A stretch of 38,893 bases of DNA from an uncultured Lachnospiraceae bacterium (GTDB taxonomy: Bacteria > Bacillota > Clostridia > Lachnospirales > Lachnospiraceae). Positions 13,355-32,094 of the stretch are shown piece by piece. The stretch's first letter is position 1. Each line of letters starts with the position of its first letter. The notes under the pieces are model-generated. The model did not search any database. It was not told where the DNA came from and saw nothing but the letters and a program-made list of their open reading frames with translations. The stretch lies in assembly GCA_946631295.1 (NCBI GenBank), contig CAMOZY010000018.1, positions 1-38,893 on the forward strand, read 5' to 3'. Made by a program: the position numbers and the translations under genes.

Positions 13355-14032
13355 TTATCCCTTTGTCGGCATGTAGGGAAGAAGTGAACCTGCAAGCTGG
13401 GGAACCGGCATGGTCTGAAGCCACAGATGTCCGGGGCCTGTTACTACGGTGTTAAAGATTCCTTCTCCGCCCAAGAATATATTCTTAAGACCGGGAACTG
13501 TCTGAATATCGATGCTGCAGGTTGCGGTCATTGCGGCAAGATAGCCTGTATCGATCACCATCTGCTGTCCGGGCTGAAGATCATACTCTTTTACGAATCC
13601 GTCGAACTCAAGGAAAGCCATTCCCTGACCGGATAATTTCTGCATAATGAAGCCTTCACCGCCTACAAGACCTGCTCCGACCTTCCTCTGGAAAAAGACT
13701 GAAAGATCAACGCCGGATGTGGATGCAAGGAAAGCCTTCTTCTGTGCGACTATCTCCTGACCCGGGGCAATCTGGAATGCACGGATAGAGCCCGGAAAGC
13801 TTGATGCAAATGCTATCATTCCTTCACCACCCTGAGCAGTATAGCGGTTTTGAAAGAGATTCTCTCCTGAAAAAGCTCTGCCAAGCATTTTACCAATTCC
13901 GCCGCCTGATGTTTCCATCTTCATATTCGGAGTCATCCAGCTCATTGCACCACTTTCGGTGATCATTGTCTCACCGGGATCAAGTGTACAGATAACTACC
14001 GGTAAAGGTTCACCCTCTATTGAATATCTCAT
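13355..14032 (-). CDS. AIM24 / TIGR00266 family protein
   Basis: A 225-residue glycine-rich beta-sheet protein of the AIM24 (TIGR00266) family. Family features include the opening MRYSIEGEPLPVV, the GESGAMSWM-like segment (here TESGAMSWMTPN), the GGGIGKMLGRAFSGE segment and the C-terminal GGEGIFNTVVTGPGHLWLQT. Bacterial members are widespread and their function is not established. The mitochondrial relative affects membrane-complex assembly. The length is typical. A GGAGG site precedes the ATG. It lies 24 bases after a GH43 gene on the same strand and likely shares its mRNA, although no functional link is evident. Confidence 0.9.
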   Translation of the reverse strand: MRYSIEGEPLPVVICTLDPGETMITESGAMSWMTPNMKMETSGGGIGKMLGRAFSGENLFQNRYTAQGGEGMIAFASSFPGSIRAFQIAPGQEIVAQKKAFLASTSGVDLSVFFQRKVGAGLVGGEGFIMQKLSGQGMAFLEFDGFVKEYDLQPGQQMVIDTGYLAAMTATCSIDIQTVPGLKNIFLGGEGIFNTVVTGPGHLWLQTMPVPQLAGSLLPYMPTKG

Positions 14033-14056
14033 TTAACATTCCTCCCTGTAGTAAGA

Positions 14057-15781
14057 TCAGTTATATCTGAATTTTGAAAATACTGCGGATCCGCCTGCTT
14101 CCTTTGTGCTGAAGACAAACAGTCCAATCCTTGCTCCTGTAAAGTGGTCGAGCTTGAAAACAAGCTTGTGTGGAGTTCCGATCGAATGTCTTGTTCCCTC
14201 GGGCTCACGATATCCGAAATATGCAGTGTCATCTTCTTCGGGAAGTTTTACAAGACTTCCTGTTTTGTCGGGATCGACATTTTTTGCAAGAAGCAAATGA
14301 TCGAAGCAGATTGCGGAGTGAAGCTTTATCTTAGGTGAAGAGAGCTTAACCTTCTCTGCAATCCTGGGAGATTCGTTATCGTGTCTTTCTCCCCATATGC
14401 CGCCGTCTATTGTTCTGGTGCACATAACGGCATAGTATTCACCGTTTTCTTTTGTGATGCCGGCATATGCATAACAGCTTTCAAGAACGCACAGTCCCGC
14501 AACATCTCCATCGCCAAGCCCGGATGCGTCTATCTCAACACTGCAGGAGCATCCCGGGAATCTGGTTCTCTGTGTCAGAACATTTTTTGCCTGAACAAGA
14601 TTGGTGCAGATCTTATCGGTTGTGACGGTTACGGTTCCTGCTTCCGCATCTCTTGTGATCAGGGAAAGGTCAGGCTCGTGTGAAAACTGCCAGCAGCTTT
14701 TGAATCCGAAGGAGTCGTTTATTCCAGGAATTTTGGAAGTGTCCTTGAAATCATCACCGGATACAAGAGGCGTATATCTGTAACCGGGGTAAAGATCTCT
14801 GACTTCAAAACTTTCAGGGATCTTTCTGTCAGTTCCGAACATGGGGAAATATGCTTCATATGTTCCGTCAAGAGGAGTGATGGTTTTATCCTCTGCGGAA
14901 GTGACATATGTGTCAGCAAGAGATCCGAGATTTATTTTCTTCCATGTAACGGGGATCAGTACGGGTATTCTTCCGACGGCGCCGCTGTCCTGGAAAAGGA
15001 TTGCGTATTCTTTTCCGTCAGGGTCACAGACTATACCGCCCTGTGCGACACCGCTTCTTCTGAAGCCTCTGTCATCGTCCATTACATCCATTCCGTAGTA
15101 GGGACCATAAGGAGAATTCGCAACATAACAACCTTCGGTGCGCTTTCCCGTGGATTTGGGCATATGGATCATGAAGAGGTAATATTTTCCGTTTATGCGG
15201 TAAAGATGTGATCCTTCATATCCAAGATAAACTTCATCGGTATCACGAAGTATGAGCGTCTCGGGTGCAGAATCTTCATCACTCAGGATCAGCCTCGTTC
15301 CTTCATCGGAAGAGTCCTCCCTGTCGGGTATTCCCTTGAGTTCTCTGATGTAGATTTCCTTATTTCCATAGACAATGTATATACGTCCGTCATTGTCAAA
15401 AAGTATGGAGTTGTCGTGATAGAAGCCGTTGAGTGTACTCTTTTTCCAGGGACCTGTAATGGATGCGGAAGTATAGACATAGGTCTTGTGAGTATCATTT
15501 GCAACGAAGCATATGTAGAAATAGCCGTCATGATATCTCAGTGATGCCGCCCACATACCCTGTCCATAGATGTTTTCTGAGCCTTCCATCTGCTGTGCGG
15601 GTGTGGAATCCAGCCTGTCATAAACATATGCGGCATGTTCCCAGTTGATAAGATCATATGATCTGAGAATCTCACATCCCGGCATAAAATACATTGTGGT
15701 ACTGACCATATAATATGTGTCATCCACACGGATGACGTCGGGATCCGGATAATCGAGTTTTAACAGTGGATTGATATTCAT
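14057..15781 (-). CDS. Glycoside hydrolase family 43 with C-terminal beta-sandwich (beta-xylosidase/arabinofuranosidase-type)
   Basis: A 574-residue enzyme with an N-terminal GH43 five-bladed propeller (about 1-310) and a C-terminal beta-sandwich (about 350-574), the layout of the xylosidase/arabinofuranosidase branch. The expected catalytic residues are Asp13 (YPDPDVIR), Asp123 (FYHDNSILF) and Glu189 (YEGSHLYRING). The sandwich includes LTQRTRFPGCSCSVEIDA and ends in FSKFRYN, typical of GH43 C2 domains. There is no signal peptide, so it should finish hydrolysis of imported xylo- or arabino-oligosaccharides in the cytoplasm. AGGGGGC precedes the start. With the GH43 at 1397 this gives two cytoplasmic GH43 enzymes in 15 kb, suggesting hemicellulose use. 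Confidence 0.92.
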   Translation of the reverse strand: MNINPLLKLDYPDPDVIRVDDTYYMVSTTMYFMPGCEILRSYDLINWEHAAYVYDRLDSTPAQQMEGSENIYGQGMWAASLRYHDGYFYICFVANDTHKTYVYTSASITGPWKKSTLNGFYHDNSILFDNDGRIYIVYGNKEIYIRELKGIPDREDSSDEGTRLILSDEDSAPETLILRDTDEVYLGYEGSHLYRINGKYYLFMIHMPKSTGKRTEGCYVANSPYGPYYGMDVMDDDRGFRRSGVAQGGIVCDPDGKEYAILFQDSGAVGRIPVLIPVTWKKINLGSLADTYVTSAEDKTITPLDGTYEAYFPMFGTDRKIPESFEVRDLYPGYRYTPLVSGDDFKDTSKIPGINDSFGFKSCWQFSHEPDLSLITRDAEAGTVTVTTDKICTNLVQAKNVLTQRTRFPGCSCSVEIDASGLGDGDVAGLCVLESCYAYAGITKENGEYYAVMCTRTIDGGIWGERHDNESPRIAEKVKLSSPKIKLHSAICFDHLLLAKNVDPDKTGSLVKLPEEDDTAYFGYREPEGTRHSIGTPHKLVFKLDHFTGARIGLFVFSTKEAGGSAVFSKFRYN

Positions 15782-16137: not shown

Positions 16138-16181
16138 AATCAGGTCAATTTTGCCTTGCGTCATAATTGGCCTGATTTTTT
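16138..16181 (+). terminator. Rho-independent terminator after the Smr gene
   Basis: AATCAGGTCAATT (16138-16150) pairs with AATTGGCCTGATT (16165-16177), 13 bp with one G-U pair and a 14-nt loop, followed by a T-run to 16181. It separates the Smr gene from the leuA-araC promoter. Confidence 0.85.
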
Positions 16182-16199
16182 GCTAAAACACAGTAAATA

Positions 16200-16216
16200 T
16201 GGCAATCTGTGGCAAT
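16200..16216 (+). promoter_or_regulatory. TGGCAAT direct repeat, one helical turn apart
   Basis: TGGCAAT occurs at 16200-16206 and 16210-16216, a 10-bp period, about 42 bases upstream of the predicted -35. Paired in-phase direct half-sites at this distance are typical of AraC-family activators. The adjacent CAATCTG (16203-16209) recurs inverted as CAGATTG at 16296-16302. Binding by the AraC domain of the gene product is inference. Confidence 0.35.
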
Positions 16217-16257
16217 ATAACAATAAAATCAATCAATAAATCAGATTAAAATCGCTC

Positions 16258-16286
16258 TTGATTTTATATTCTCATAGTGATATTGT
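16258..16286 (+). promoter_or_regulatory. Promoter of the leuA-araC fusion gene
   Basis: TTGATT (16258-16263), a 17-nt spacer and TATTGT (16281-16286). The -35 is embedded in a perfect 7-bp inverted repeat, TAAAATC/GATTTTA (16247-16253 and 16260-16266), a possible operator. The transcript leader would contain a 7-bp hairpin, GCGGAAT/ATTCCGC, near 16306-16325, just before the ribosome binding site. Confidence 0.5.
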
Positions 16287-16339
16287 TTCGTTATCAGATT
16301 GCAGTGCGGAATAATACGATTCCGCGGATAGGAGATAAT

Positions 16340-18343
16340 ATGAGCAAGGTCAGGGTCAGTGAAAAATACAAACCGACATATCACATGCCACCTGTATGTG
16401 AGCATAACTGGGTAAAGAAGGATCGTATCAAAAAGGCGCCCATCTGGTGCAGCGTAGATTTGAGAGACGGTAACCAGGCACTTATCGATCCCATGAGCCT
16501 TGAGACCAAGCTTGAGTTTTTTAAACTGCTCGTAGATGTAGGATTTAAGGAGATAGAGGTCGGATTTCCCGCTTCTTCCGATACTGAATTTGAATTCATC
16601 AGAGCGCTTATCGATAAGGATATGATCCCCGATGATGTCACGATACAGGTTCTGACACAGGCAAGAGAGCATATCATCCGCAAGACCTTTGAGGCAGTAA
16701 AGGGCTGCCCCAAGGCAATAGTTCATCTTTATAATTCAACTTCCGTTGAGCAGAGAGAGCAGGTATTCAAAAAGGAAAAGCCCGAGATCAAAAAGCTTGC
16801 CGTTGACGGAGCAAAGCTTCTCAAGAAGCTCGCCGATGAGACCGACGGAAATTTCATGTTCGAATACAGTCCCGAGAGTTTTTCGCAGACAGAGCCTGAA
16901 TTTGCACTTGAAGTATGTAATGCGGTTCTCGATGTATGGAAGCCCACACCTGAAAAGAAGGCAATCATCAATCTTCCTTCAACCGTCCAGGTTGCAATGC
17001 CTCATGTATTTGCGGACCAGATCGAGTATATGTCCGATAATCTTAAGTACAGAAAGGGAGTTGTTGTATCGGTTCATCCTCACAATGACAGGGGTACCGG
17101 TGTTGCTGATGCAGAACTCGGTGTACTTGCGGGTGCTGACAGGGTTGAGGGAACTCTTTTCGGAAACGGCGAGAGAACCGGAAATGTCGATCTTGTGACA
17201 GTAGCGCTCAATATGACCACACATGGTGTCGACAGCGGACTTGATTTCTCCAATATCATGAAGATCAGGGCCGACTATGAGAGATTTACCAATATGAAGG
17301 TTCATGAGAGAACTCCTTACGGAGGGGACCTGGTATTTACCGCATTCTCAGGATCTCACCAGGATGCTATCAGTAAGGGAATGAATTACCGTGCGGAGGG
17401 CAAGACCGGAAAGCGCTGGGATATCCCCTATATTCCCATCGATCCTTCAGACGTTGGAAGAGAGTATGAATCCGATGTTATCCGCATCAATTCAACCTCA
17501 GGAAAGGGCGGCGTGGCATTCGTTCTCAAGCAGCAGTTTGGTTTCAGCCTGCCCGCTGCAATGAAGGAAGAGGTCGGTTATCTCATGAAGGGCGTATCCG
17601 ACAGGAAACACAAAGAGCTCAAGCCCGATGAGATGTTCCAGATTTTTGAGGATGTATATATCACTTCAAGACCTGTTTTCGATGTTACAGCCGTTCATTA
17701 CAAACAGCTCGGAGAGGGCGGCATCGAGGCAGCAGTAAGCTTTAAGGATAAGAGCGGAGAGATGGATGTTTCCACCATAGGAAACGGAAGACTCGATTCA
17801 GTCAGCAATGCGCTTAAGCTGTACCTTGGTGTTGATTATGAACTCACCGGTTATGAGGAGCATGCAATCTCCAGAACCAGTTCATCCAAGGCTGCATCAT
17901 ATGTCAGTGTTGTATCTGAGGGTAAGACTTACTGGGGCGTCGGAGTCAATGAGGATATTATCAAGGCTTCAACCGCTGCACTTGTCAGTGTTGTAAATAA
18001 GGTGGCTACGGACCAGCACATTAACCGCGGGCGTGAAGAGAGACTTGTCGAGATCCTTACATATATTCAGAGGAATTATATCGATGTTACTCTTGACGGA
18101 CTTGCAGATGAATTCCACCTTTCAAGACCTTATCTCTCAAAATATATCAAGGACAAGGCAGGCGAGACCTTCCAGGATGTTGTCCGTATAGAAAGACTTA
18201 AGCGTGCCAAGACTCTATTAAAGGATACCGGCAAGAGCATAGAGACCGTTGCAGGAGAGATCGGATATGAGAACGTTGAGCATTTCAACAGACTCTTTAA
18301 AAAGACCTATGGAATAACTCCCGCACAGTTCCGCAAGAGCTGA
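16340..18343 (+). CDS. leuA: 2-isopropylmalate synthase fused to an AraC-type DNA-binding domain
   Basis: A 667-residue fusion. Residues 1 to about 440 form a LeuA TIM barrel that condenses acetyl-CoA with 2-ketoisovalerate in leucine synthesis. They contain LRDGNQ (Arg42, Asp43), the metal-binding HPHND (His246, His248) and GNGERTGNVDL. Residues about 440-555 are the LeuA allosteric domain that normally binds leucine, with GNGRLDSVSNALK and the EEHAISRTSSSKAASY segment. Residues about 565-667 are a full AraC two-helix-turn-helix domain, with LADEFHLSRPYLSKYIKDKAG and IGYENVEHFNRLFKKTYG. Enzymes of this subfamily normally end near residue 560. No frameshift is involved. ATG 16340 follows GGAG. 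No leuB, leuC or leuD lies nearby. I infer that the enzyme senses leucine and regulates transcription directly, perhaps its own. Confidence 0.93.
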   Translation: MSKVRVSEKYKPTYHMPPVCEHNWVKKDRIKKAPIWCSVDLRDGNQALIDPMSLETKLEFFKLLVDVGFKEIEVGFPASSDTEFEFIRALIDKDMIPDDVTIQVLTQAREHIIRKTFEAVKGCPKAIVHLYNSTSVEQREQVFKKEKPEIKKLAVDGAKLLKKLADETDGNFMFEYSPESFSQTEPEFALEVCNAVLDVWKPTPEKKAIINLPSTVQVAMPHVFADQIEYMSDNLKYRKGVVVSVHPHNDRGTGVADAELGVLAGADRVEGTLFGNGERTGNVDLVTVALNMTTHGVDSGLDFSNIMKIRADYERFTNMKVHERTPYGGDLVFTAFSGSHQDAISKGMNYRAEGKTGKRWDIPYIPIDPSDVGREYESDVIRINSTSGKGGVAFVLKQQFGFSLPAAMKEEVGYLMKGVSDRKHKELKPDEMFQIFEDVYITSRPVFDVTAVHYKQLGEGGIEAAVSFKDKSGEMDVSTIGNGRLDSVSNALKLYLGVDYELTGYEEHAISRTSSSKAASYVSVVSEGKTYWGVGVNEDIIKASTAALVSVVNKVATDQHINRGREERLVEILTYIQRNYIDVTLDGLADEFHLSRPYLSKYIKDKAGETFQDVVRIERLKRAKTLLKDTGKSIETVAGEIGYENVEHFNRLFKKTYGITPAQFRKS

Positions 18344-18422: not shown

Positions 18423-18474
18423 AAAAATCATATGATGATCAGGCAACTATAGGATGCTGAATGAGAGGAATGTC

Positions 18475-19344
18475 GTGAAGGGCTGGTTAATAGTTAATTC
18501 ATTTGTAAAATGGGATAAATTTACGGAGATTTATGAACTGCTCCTTGATGCAGGAAAGGCGAAGGGTATCGATCTTGAGATGAAATCTTCTTCGGATGTT
18601 TTCTGCAGTGTGCAGAGCGGTTTTGGTGAAATCCCCCTTCCGGATTTTGTCATCTTCTGGGATAAGGACATACTTCTTGCAAGACGTCTTGAAAAGATCG
18701 GACTCAGGCTTTTTAATCCTTCCGAAAGTATTGAGGTATGCGATGATAAGGGTCAGACAGCCATTGCCCTAAGTGAAAAAGGGATCATGACTCCGCTTAC
18801 ATTCCTGTCACCCAAGGCATACCCAAGCTTTGGATGTACGGATCTGTCCTTCCTTGACAAGGCAGAAGACTCCCTGGGATATCCCATGGTCATAAAGGAA
18901 AACAGGGGGTCCTTCGGAAAGCAGGTCCATCTGGTCAGATCCCGGGCCGAGGCTGAGGAACTCATAGCGGGATTTAAAGAGCATCCTTTTATCATGCAGG
19001 AATATATTGAAGAGTCCGGCGGACGAGATGTGAGAGTCAATGTGGTCGGTGGTAAGGTCGTTGCCTCAATGTACCGCTATAATGACAATGACTTCCGGTC
19101 CAATATCACAAACGGCGGAAGCATGAAATGCTACGAAGCAGATCCTGCTCAGGCTGAGATTGCCATAAAAGCATGTGAAGCGATAGGACTTGATTTTGCA
19201 GGGGTTGATGTGCTCTTTGGAAATGACGGACCTGTCATATGTGAGGTTAATTCGAATCCCCATTTCAAGACCACTCTTGAATGCACCGGTATCAATATGG
19301 CAGAGCATATAATGGCTCATATCCTGGAAGTTATGTCAAAGTAA
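18475..19344 (+). CDS. ATP-grasp ligase, RimK-like (first of a pair)
   Basis: A 289-residue ATP-grasp carboxylate-amine ligase of the RimK/LysX type, which forms an amide bond through an acyl-phosphate. The central region has GYPMVIKENRGSFGKQV (ATP-binding lysines and the flexible loop), and the catalytic half has RDVRVNVVGGKVVASMYR, the FRSNITNGG motif and the metal-binding CEVNSNP. I prefer GTG 18475 (MKGWLIVNSF), which follows GAGAGGAA by five bases, over ATG 18454. A second ATP-grasp gene begins five bases after the stop. No LysW-like carrier or short substrate peptide gene was seen nearby, so the acceptor is unknown. Confidence 0.9.
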   Translation: MKGWLIVNSFVKWDKFTEIYELLLDAGKAKGIDLEMKSSSDVFCSVQSGFGEIPLPDFVIFWDKDILLARRLEKIGLRLFNPSESIEVCDDKGQTAIALSEKGIMTPLTFLSPKAYPSFGCTDLSFLDKAEDSLGYPMVIKENRGSFGKQVHLVRSRAEAEELIAGFKEHPFIMQEYIEESGGRDVRVNVVGGKVVASMYRYNDNDFRSNITNGGSMKCYEADPAQAEIAIKACEAIGLDFAGVDVLFGNDGPVICEVNSNPHFKTTLECTGINMAEHIMAHILEVMSK

Positions 19345-19349
19345 AAAAC

Positions 19350-20240
19350 ATGAAAAATAAGGCGCTTCTCATATATGCATATGAGGATATAGAAAAGAAT
19401 AAGTGGTTTGCAGACAGACTCACAGAGCTTGCAGCAGAGCAAGGCATCCGGATGAAGCTCATGTCTGCCGAGGAAATTAATGAGCGTGTTATTTCCGAAT
19501 TCAGGGTGAATGAGAAGGGGCTTCTTAACACTGCCATTGTGAATTTCCTTGACGCGATTTCCTATGTGATAAACAGATCGAGGGACGATAAAATCTCTCT
19601 TTTTTTTGAGGAACACGGCATCCCCTCATTTAATAATTCGGATACCGTCCGTTTTGGGAACGATAAATTTCTGGAGTACGGCTTCTTCTCAGGGCTTGGT
19701 CTTCCCGTGATGCCTACGGTATGCGGTGATACAGCAGAAGACGAAATACCTTTTGCTCCTCCGTATGTCGTAAAGCACCGAAGAGGACATGGCGGCAGCA
19801 TGGTTTTCAGGGCTGATTCATATAAGGATGCTCTTGATGTAATGGGGAAAATACCTCGTAAGGACTGGATCATACAGAAGTTGTGTGATGAGCCCGGATG
19901 TGATATGAGGCTGTATATATTAGGTAACCGCATTCTTGCCGGGGTGCTCAGAAGATCTGAGGAAGATTTCAGAAGCAATTTCAGCCTGGGCGGAAGTGCC
20001 GGGCTTGTCACTCCTGAGCCCGAGATCTGTGAGCAGGCTCTGAAAGCAGCAGGAAACTTAGGTGCCGATTATATAGGAATAGATCTTATACGGGATGGGG
20101 GAAGATTTGTTTTTAATGAGATCGAAGATGCGGTCGGAGCAAGAATGCTGTACGAAGTATCTGAGCTTGATGCCGCCAGAGAGCTCATGACGCATATTTA
20201 TGAAAAAACTTTTCAAAATCCCGAAAATGGGATAAAATAG
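19350..20240 (+). CDS. ATP-grasp ligase, RimK-like (second of a pair)
   Basis: A 296-residue paralogue-like ATP-grasp protein, clearly divergent from the gene before it. It has PPYVVKHRRGHGGSMVFRA in place of the usual KxxxGSxGxxV loop, DMRLYILGNRILAGVLRR, and FRSNFSLGGSAG, with a metal-site segment FNEIEDAVGARML in which NEIE replaces the EVNSNP of its neighbour. The start ATG 19350 has only a weak ribosome site and lies five bases after the preceding stop, so translational coupling is likely. Two adjacent, non-identical ligases suggest sequential additions to one substrate or a hetero-oligomer. Function is not known. Confidence 0.87.
   Translation: MKNKALLIYAYEDIEKNKWFADRLTELAAEQGIRMKLMSAEEINERVISEFRVNEKGLLNTAIVNFLDAISYVINRSRDDKISLFFEEHGIPSFNNSDTVRFGNDKFLEYGFFSGLGLPVMPTVCGDTAEDEIPFAPPYVVKHRRGHGGSMVFRADSYKDALDVMGKIPRKDWIIQKLCDEPGCDMRLYILGNRILAGVLRRSEEDFRSNFSLGGSAGLVTPEPEICEQALKAAGNLGADYIGIDLIRDGGRFVFNEIEDAVGARMLYEVSELDAARELMTHIYEKTFQNPENGIK
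20210..20238 (+). promoter_or_regulatory. Possible promoter before the foldase-like gene
   Basis: TTTTCA (20210-20215), a 17-nt spacer and TAAAAT (20233-20238), inside the 3' end of the second ATP-grasp gene. The -35 is weak (four of six). Confidence 0.35.
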
Positions 20241-32010: not shown

Positions 32011-32094
32011 GCGGGTATGGCGAAATAGGTAGACGCAAGGGACTTAAAATCCCTCGGGGGCGACTCCGTGCCGGTTCAAGTCCGGCTACCCGCA
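32011..32094 (+). tRNA. trnL: tRNA-Leu (anticodon UAA)
   Basis: An 84-nt class II tRNA. The acceptor arms GCGGGTA and TACCCGC pair fully, with discriminator A at 32094. The anticodon loop CTTAAAA reads UAA. A variable arm around CGGGGGCGACTCCG and a T-arm GGTTCAAGTCC complete it, as expected for leucine tRNAs. The CCA is not encoded. A run of seven T follows and probably helps termination. Confidence 0.96.

Follow-up and report, generated by a model that had tools for sequence, protein, structure and literature searches.

T-boxes are RNA leaders that sense uncharged tRNA, and regulators of the AraC/XylS family usually have a cupin-like sensor domain as their ligand part. Ada combines an AraC-type helix-turn-helix (HTH) with a DNA-repair methyltransferase in one chain, and the DNA-binding folds of PutA and BirA are a ribbon-helix-helix and a winged helix, respectively. 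PutA and BirA are described as enzymes that repress their own operons (PMC6978683). In Clostridia and Bacillales, T-boxes are described as controlling branched-chain amino-acid synthesis, and in Geobacter and Pelobacter as controlling leuA (PMC2494555). In the alpha-isopropylmalate synthase LeuA of M. tuberculosis, leucine is described as occupying C-terminal pockets at the dimer interface, with a loop that closes over it (PMC11057210).

Here we describe leuA-araC, a gene for the first enzyme of leucine synthesis in an uncultured Lachnospiraceae bacterium, which resembles each of these systems in part and lies in a window of 38,893 nucleotides, the whole stretch of DNA that was analysed. M. 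tuberculosis LeuA (PDB 1SR9/3FIG) is of the same enzyme class over residues 9-556, leucine domain included, but ends where the AraC domain starts here and has no DNA-binding domain. Like the AraC/XylS factors AraC, RhaS and SoxS, the leuA-araC protein carries a C-terminal double HTH behind a dimeric ligand domain, and its predicted operator recalls that of AraC, with direct repeats about two helical turns apart and the proximal half-site over the -35 element. Where those factors have a sensor domain, the leuA-araC protein has an entire biosynthetic enzyme, with an allosteric site of its own, for ligand binding and dimerisation. As in PutA and BirA, one polypeptide would unite metabolic catalysis with a DNA-binding part for a pathway promoter (predicted here from sequence), although those are other enzymes with other folds, whereas here an AraC domain sits on an enzyme of leucine biosynthesis and apparently replaces a T-box. 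Ada likewise holds an enzyme and an AraC-type DNA-binding domain in a single chain, but it is a one-shot repair protein, whereas LeuA is a turnover biosynthetic enzyme with feedback inhibition. T-boxes upstream of many HTH-less leuA genes in the family serve the same purpose, adjusting leucine synthesis to the leucine supply, but do so as RNA leaders, in contrast to the candidate protein operator of the window. In literature searches judged by titles and abstract openings, with subscription journals and preprints mostly outside them, none of the papers listed dealt with a LeuA-AraC protein.

The leuA-araC gene and its product

The leuA-araC gene (16340..18343, plus strand) encodes a 667-aa 2-isopropylmalate synthase with an AraC-type DNA-binding domain, in a continuous frame of 667 codons from ATG 16340 to TGA 18341-18343. 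An alternative start at GTG 16277, listed with a 688-aa product, was rejected because it falls within the promoter. All on the plus strand, an HMGL-like catalytic TIM barrel bearing the motifs LRDGNQ and HPHND (16439..17269; PF00682, residues 34-310, E 3.2e-74) is followed by the post-catalytic domain IPMS_D2 (17327..17530; PF22615, residues 330-397, E 1e-30), the allosteric leucine domain LeuA_dimer (17615..18004; PF08502, residues 426-555, E 1.3e-23) and the AraC double HTH (18101..18337; HTH_18, PF12833, residues 588-666, E 2.5e-22). The three LeuA domains all score above their cut-offs, and HTH_18 reaches 79.4 bits against a gathering score of 33.6, which places the C-terminal part among the AraC/XylS double HTHs; HTH_AraC also matches residues 627-666 (E 1.9e-12). 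The NCBIfam model PRK03739.1 assigns the protein to its subfamily (790.6 bits, cut-off 455), while the equivalog TIGR00970 (leuA_yeast) was narrowly missed (684.3 bits, cut-off 697.4). All 20 aligned sequences share LRDGNQ, and all but one share HPHND, the exception reading HAHND.

The closest solved structure by sequence is that of M. tuberculosis LeuA (E 1.9e-156), which also ranked first in a Foldseek search with an AF2 model of the protein. The LeuA_dimer region aligns to this enzyme, whose last residues match up to residue 556; the AraC domain is thus an addition to a complete enzyme. Structure matches to the HTH part include SoxS, AraC and Rob. The AF2 model itself is mediocre (pTM 0.51): the HTH has a pLDDT of about 83-90, but parts of the barrel and the hinge at about 323-390 are poorly predicted, and the model therefore supports no claim on domain coupling. 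The first-pass annotation had read an uninterrupted LeuA-AraC frame here, with a barrel, a full allosteric domain and both HTH units in this order. Frame, Pfam domains and the M. tuberculosis alignment confirm that reading, and a stop or frameshift near 18020, its named point of weakness, was looked for in the sequence and not found. By sequence, then, the product is a full-length 2-isopropylmalate synthase of the M. tuberculosis type, leucine domain included, followed by an AraC-type double HTH, and we infer that it is catalytically active.

The genome of the window has one LeuA match at E<=1e-100, and leuB, leuC and ilvC are present in it. Directly after leuA-araC lie two consecutive RimK-like ATP-grasp genes (18454-20240), and upstream of it the minus strand encodes a GH43 glycosidase and a protein of the AIM24 family (13355-15781). 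The sole Rfam match of the window at the gathering score is a tRNA (32011-32094).

Operator and promoter of leuA-araC

The regions upstream of fused leuA genes have a tandem direct repeat in common, TTAAAATAnATCAAt with GATTAAAnnnnnCnCTTG 22-23 bp further on, and the CTTG of the GATTAAAnnnnnCnCTTG half-site holds the start of the -35 hexamer. In the window, all on the plus strand, box 1 of the predicted operator (ATAAAATCAATCAAT) lies at 16223..16237 and box 2 (GATTAAAATCGCTCTTG), its direct repeat 22-23 bp away, at 16244..16260. Box 2 overlaps the -35 hexamer TTGATT (16258..16263), which was placed by its sequence and by its offset from box 1 in relatives; 17 bp further follows the -10 hexamer TATTGT with an extended TG (16281..16286). 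A weight model scores the operator of the window at 34.5 bits, this locus having belonged to the training set.

The model detects the operator in 83 of the 97 non-redundant 350-bp upstreams on which it was trained. In two-fold cross-validation, 70/97 held-out upstreams reached at least 20 bits and 79/97 at least 15 bits. Controls with the full model gave no hit at 20 bits or more and seven at 15 or more among 9700 Markov shuffles, and one of 97 reverse strands at 20 bits or more. A TATAAT-like hexamer (at least 4 of 6) stands exactly 17 bp past the -35 in 77 of 93 operator-bearing loci; the 93 include 22 without a TTG in place, where the -35 position was assigned by offset. The next real peaks, at spacings of 12 and 20 bp, comprise 40 and 37 loci, and the shuffle background is 7-16 per spacing. 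This conserved tandem operator, predicted at the gene's own promoter, is new in this analysis. As with AraC/XylS regulators, the candidate sites are direct repeats about two helical turns apart at the target promoter, and as with trigger enzymes they lie at a promoter of the enzyme's own pathway, that of its own leuA.

We consider it likely that the protein is a bifunctional, autoregulatory 2-isopropylmalate synthase whose AraC domains bind its own promoter and in which leucine alters both catalysis and DNA binding. The LeuA part would be a complete enzyme with a dimeric leucine-binding domain, and each protomer's C-terminal AraC domain would bind one of the direct-repeat half-sites, which stand 22-23 bp apart at the gene's own promoter, where the downstream half-site overlaps the -35. 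Since the AraC domain directly follows the leucine domain, two HTHs per dimer on half-sites two turns apart would be a natural geometry. Leucine in the allosteric domain would shift the placement of the HTHs and so change DNA binding along with catalysis, such that one leucine site may set both the rate and the amount of the enzyme. Leucine-free dimers would most likely activate leuA, by class II activation. DNA binding, activation rather than repression, and leucine as the signal are what we infer here; that the enzyme controls its own production is very probable from its DNA-binding tail and the paired sites at its promoter, and that leuA-araC is leucine-responsive is probable.

The sign of this control can be argued in two ways. 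Overlap with the -35 would permit box 2 to serve steric repression too, and both the -35 and the extended -10 look serviceable without an activator. It is thus possible, if doubtful, that the protein is an autorepressor which, in its leucine-bound form or as idle enzyme, sits on both boxes, blocks the -35 and lowers leuA transcription when leucine is plentiful. The leuA-araC promoter, however, has the layout of AraC class II activators, in which the direct repeat nearer the promoter overlaps the -35. The near-constant spacing to the -35 and -10 also fits contact with RNA polymerase, something that simple blocking would not require.

Operator, HTH and T-box across loci and trees

The comparison took loci in which 250 bp or more (up to 800 bp) precede leuA, after removal of near copies, the HTH-less ones being a non-random set hand-picked from the best genus and family matches. 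Of 101 fused loci, 90 had an operator of at least 20 bits and another five one of 13-20 bits; six had none recognisable (L002, L016, L122, L127, L039, which has a T-box, and L067, whose upstream is merely 279 bp). Where the HTH lies in an adjacent or overlapping frame, all three loci scored at least 19 bits (L014 31.9, L213 30.4 and L222 19.1). None of 50 HTH-less loci had an operator of 13 bits or more, the best scoring 8.5, once L061 (26.5 bits), a frame-broken fused gene, had been set aside from the original 51.

The T-box showed the opposite distribution, with its motif, sought by regular expression, in 36/50 HTH-less as against 12/101 fused loci. At the Rfam gathering score a T-box was found in 29 of 37 loci taken as unfused (16/20 and 13/17), a set that includes L213 and L222, split genes in which no T-box was found, and in 3 of the 20 fused loci searched. 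Operator and T-box are both present in the fused loci L030, L046, L119 and L284. L024 and L116 also show the T-box motif, but an Rfam match is absent for both as well as for L136, another stretch taken from the L024 promoter. Upstream of the leuA of the window no T-box (RF00230) reached the gathering score, which leaves this locus outside the T-box-regulated leuA group. Judged by these predictions, leuA genes with the fusion tend to be without a T-box leader, and the best explanation would be that the fused enzyme stands in for T-box control in many lineages.

Three further observations concern single loci. In L213/L227 (G129) and L222/L228 (G146), LeuA and AraC are encoded in adjacent or overlapping frames and the operator is kept; these are either natural split genes or frameshifts. 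A Clostridiales-1 RNA (RF01699) matches beside the T-box upstream of HTH-less leuA in L215 and L226. L284 (G1018:C22:39000-45500), where the fused gene has an operator as well as a T-box, comes from a genome assigned to another family and reflects either horizontal transfer or a mis-binned contig.

A FastTree phylogeny of the LeuA core (114 rows, HTH columns left out) placed every HTH row inside one clade of 74 rows (support 91, not starred), which also includes 10 nested HTH-less rows. None of these 10 has the operator, and 8 of them have the T-box motif. The tree requires seven changes of HTH state, a number as low in 0 of 500 shuffles. An IQ-TREE phylogeny of 62 rows, hand-chosen from the same set, has six HTH-less rows within the HTH group and again seven changes, three of them forced by starred branches. 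Over the seven independent contrasts in the 62-row tree, operator and HTH were concordant in a mean of 6.9 and reversed in none, while T-box and HTH went the same way in none and opposite ways in 4.1. On starred branches only, the operator was concordant in 1.7 of 2 contrasts (114-row tree) and 2.9 of 3 (62-row tree), with no reversal, and the T-box gave 0.3 the same way and 0.7 reversed of 2 (114-row tree); these starred-branch contrasts are non-significant because two or three are too few for a sign test. Contrast counts give no direction, gain versus loss. The simplest reading of the trees would be one origin and repeated loss, with HTH and operator lost jointly.

This joint distribution bears on whose operator it is. 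Some family and order genomes encode AraC proteins that stand alone and resemble the fused HTH (about 101-135 bits against A1). One of these might use the operator, and the fused HTH would then do something else or nothing. We give this little credence, since the operator comes and goes with the HTH in about seven of seven independent contrasts and the split genes L213 and L222 keep the operator with the HTH frame adjoining leuA.

Spread of the fusion, selection and possible other targets

The full-length fusion is found in 27 of 31 genomes of the genus. Elsewhere in the genus, the match covers residues 73-666 from the start of a contig (G018), is split by a frame change into LeuA and HTH frames (G010) or stops at residue 370 (G002), and in G020 no match is at LeuA level (best E 1.2e-14). 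Across the family, at least 89/397 genomes have it, counting rows that extend to residue 665 or further. The order-wide set has the fusion in 50/392 genomes, all of the window's own family, and the phylum sample in 4/398, three of the same family plus G1018. A scan of named genomes with C-terminal alignment confirmed at least 581 relatives, among which free-standing AraC proteins may be included; titles among the 80 matches listed are mostly Lachnospiraceae, Acetatifactor, Roseburia or Eisenbergiella. By regular expression, LeuA and HTH motifs lie within one frame in 116 of 128 first loci, the other 12 being cut by a contig end, frame-broken or missed by the expression. Enzyme and DNA-binding domain are thus, by their sequences, one conserved polypeptide that is widespread in the family.

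The first-pass annotation had raised the idea that the enzyme is itself a transcription factor responsive to leucine or substrate, and had suggested footprinting 16180-16340 and mapping the fusion among relatives on a tree. The idea is supported in part: the conserved fusion and the predicted operator at the gene's own promoter lend good support to an enzyme that is also a transcription factor, and a response to leucine or substrate would be its putative part. The operator falls inside the stretch proposed for footprinting, and all HTH rows of the 114-row tree lie in the single clade described above.

The nested HTH-less rows suggest that some lineages probably lost the HTH and kept LeuA, as might be expected were it a passive C-terminal extension without DNA-binding function. 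This we find scarcely credible. Over 53-66 pairs per domain from the genus and near relatives, the median dN/dS of the HTH is 0.062, compared with 0.025 for the barrel, 0.033 for IPMS_D2, 0.047 for LeuA_dimer and 0.089 for the linker, rough values given a median dS of 0.9-1.3, near saturation. The HTH is, by this measure, under purifying selection; its stretches PYLSKYI and VEHF.R.FK hardly vary among 17 aligned sequences, and it comes and goes with the operator. That the fusion is an assembly or frameshift artefact has practically no probability, for although the window's assembly is fragmented and about 91% complete, an uninterrupted frame of the same kind stands in those at least 89 genomes, including the single-contig G299, G349 and G390, and recurrence in genus, family and named genomes excludes chance or assembly error as its origin.

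Few other genes with the operator came out of the searches. A pattern allowing three mismatches gave 11 sites in 10 of 18 genus genomes, 10 of them at leuA and the eleventh upstream of a gene for a short-chain dehydrogenase in G027 (L257, 32.8 bits), with no site in the other 8 genomes and none for the reversed pattern; as a site was found in only 10 of 18, this near-uniqueness to leuA rests on an insensitive pattern. In 30 fused genomes a strict pattern found 13 sites in 11 genomes, seven at leuA (reversed control 0), and the six others lie within open frames and look like chance. A looser pattern in 30 diverse fused genomes gave 12 sites in 11 genomes, mostly chance since only two are at leuA and the reversed control gave one; two of its sites are strong by weight matrix (L287, 36.1 bits; L293, 30.0 bits).

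Within the pathway, none of 18 leuC upstreams (from 25 loci, in 7 of which no start was located) and none of 20 ilvC upstreams had an operator of at least 10 bits. For leuB, z exceeded 3 in 3/30 fused and 0/30 HTH-less genomes, with outstanding sites in G047 (22.3 bits), G349 (10.9) and G027 (8.7), but the medians were equal (Mann-Whitney p 0.38 for scores, 0.20 for z). A pathway-wide regulon is thus unsupported as a general rule. The sole site of at least 14 bits in 20 leu/ilv stretches, before ilvN-ilvC in G349 (16.5 bits), was rejected as a target, being about the shuffle expectation for 310 kb on both strands. In the ilvB-ilvC-leuCD locus of the window's genome (L187, G000:C36:8000-27000), no T-box reached the gathering score and no leuA-type operator reached 14 bits. 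In G258 (L287, G258:C1 near 2055051), the gene of an SBF-family (bile acid:sodium symporter family) transporter is preceded by the 36.1-bit operator and then a T-box, which suggests a leucine-related substrate; as a conserved target it was rejected, the relative in G299 (L329) being without the operator. Autoregulation would thus be the general case, with other targets sporadic at best.

The widest version of our model joins several claims: leucine at one site sets catalytic rate and the enzyme's own transcription, the system arose once in the family, largely displaced the leuA T-box, was repeatedly lost together with its operator, and extended sporadically to leuB (G047, G349) and the SBF transporter (G258). 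Taken whole, we regard it as about evenly poised between right and wrong.

If the model is true, enzyme inhibition and gene regulation, both of them end-product controls, would be joined in one molecule, probably through one leucine site. The family would then display an apparent natural swap from T-box RNA to protein sensing of the same amino acid, and because that swap is visible across related lineages, the cost and benefit of each could be compared. The locus also provides candidates for a leucine-responsive promoter and a regulator module, and it indicates that, in many genomes from gut and rumen, a gene labelled simply as leuA can conceal a putative regulator.
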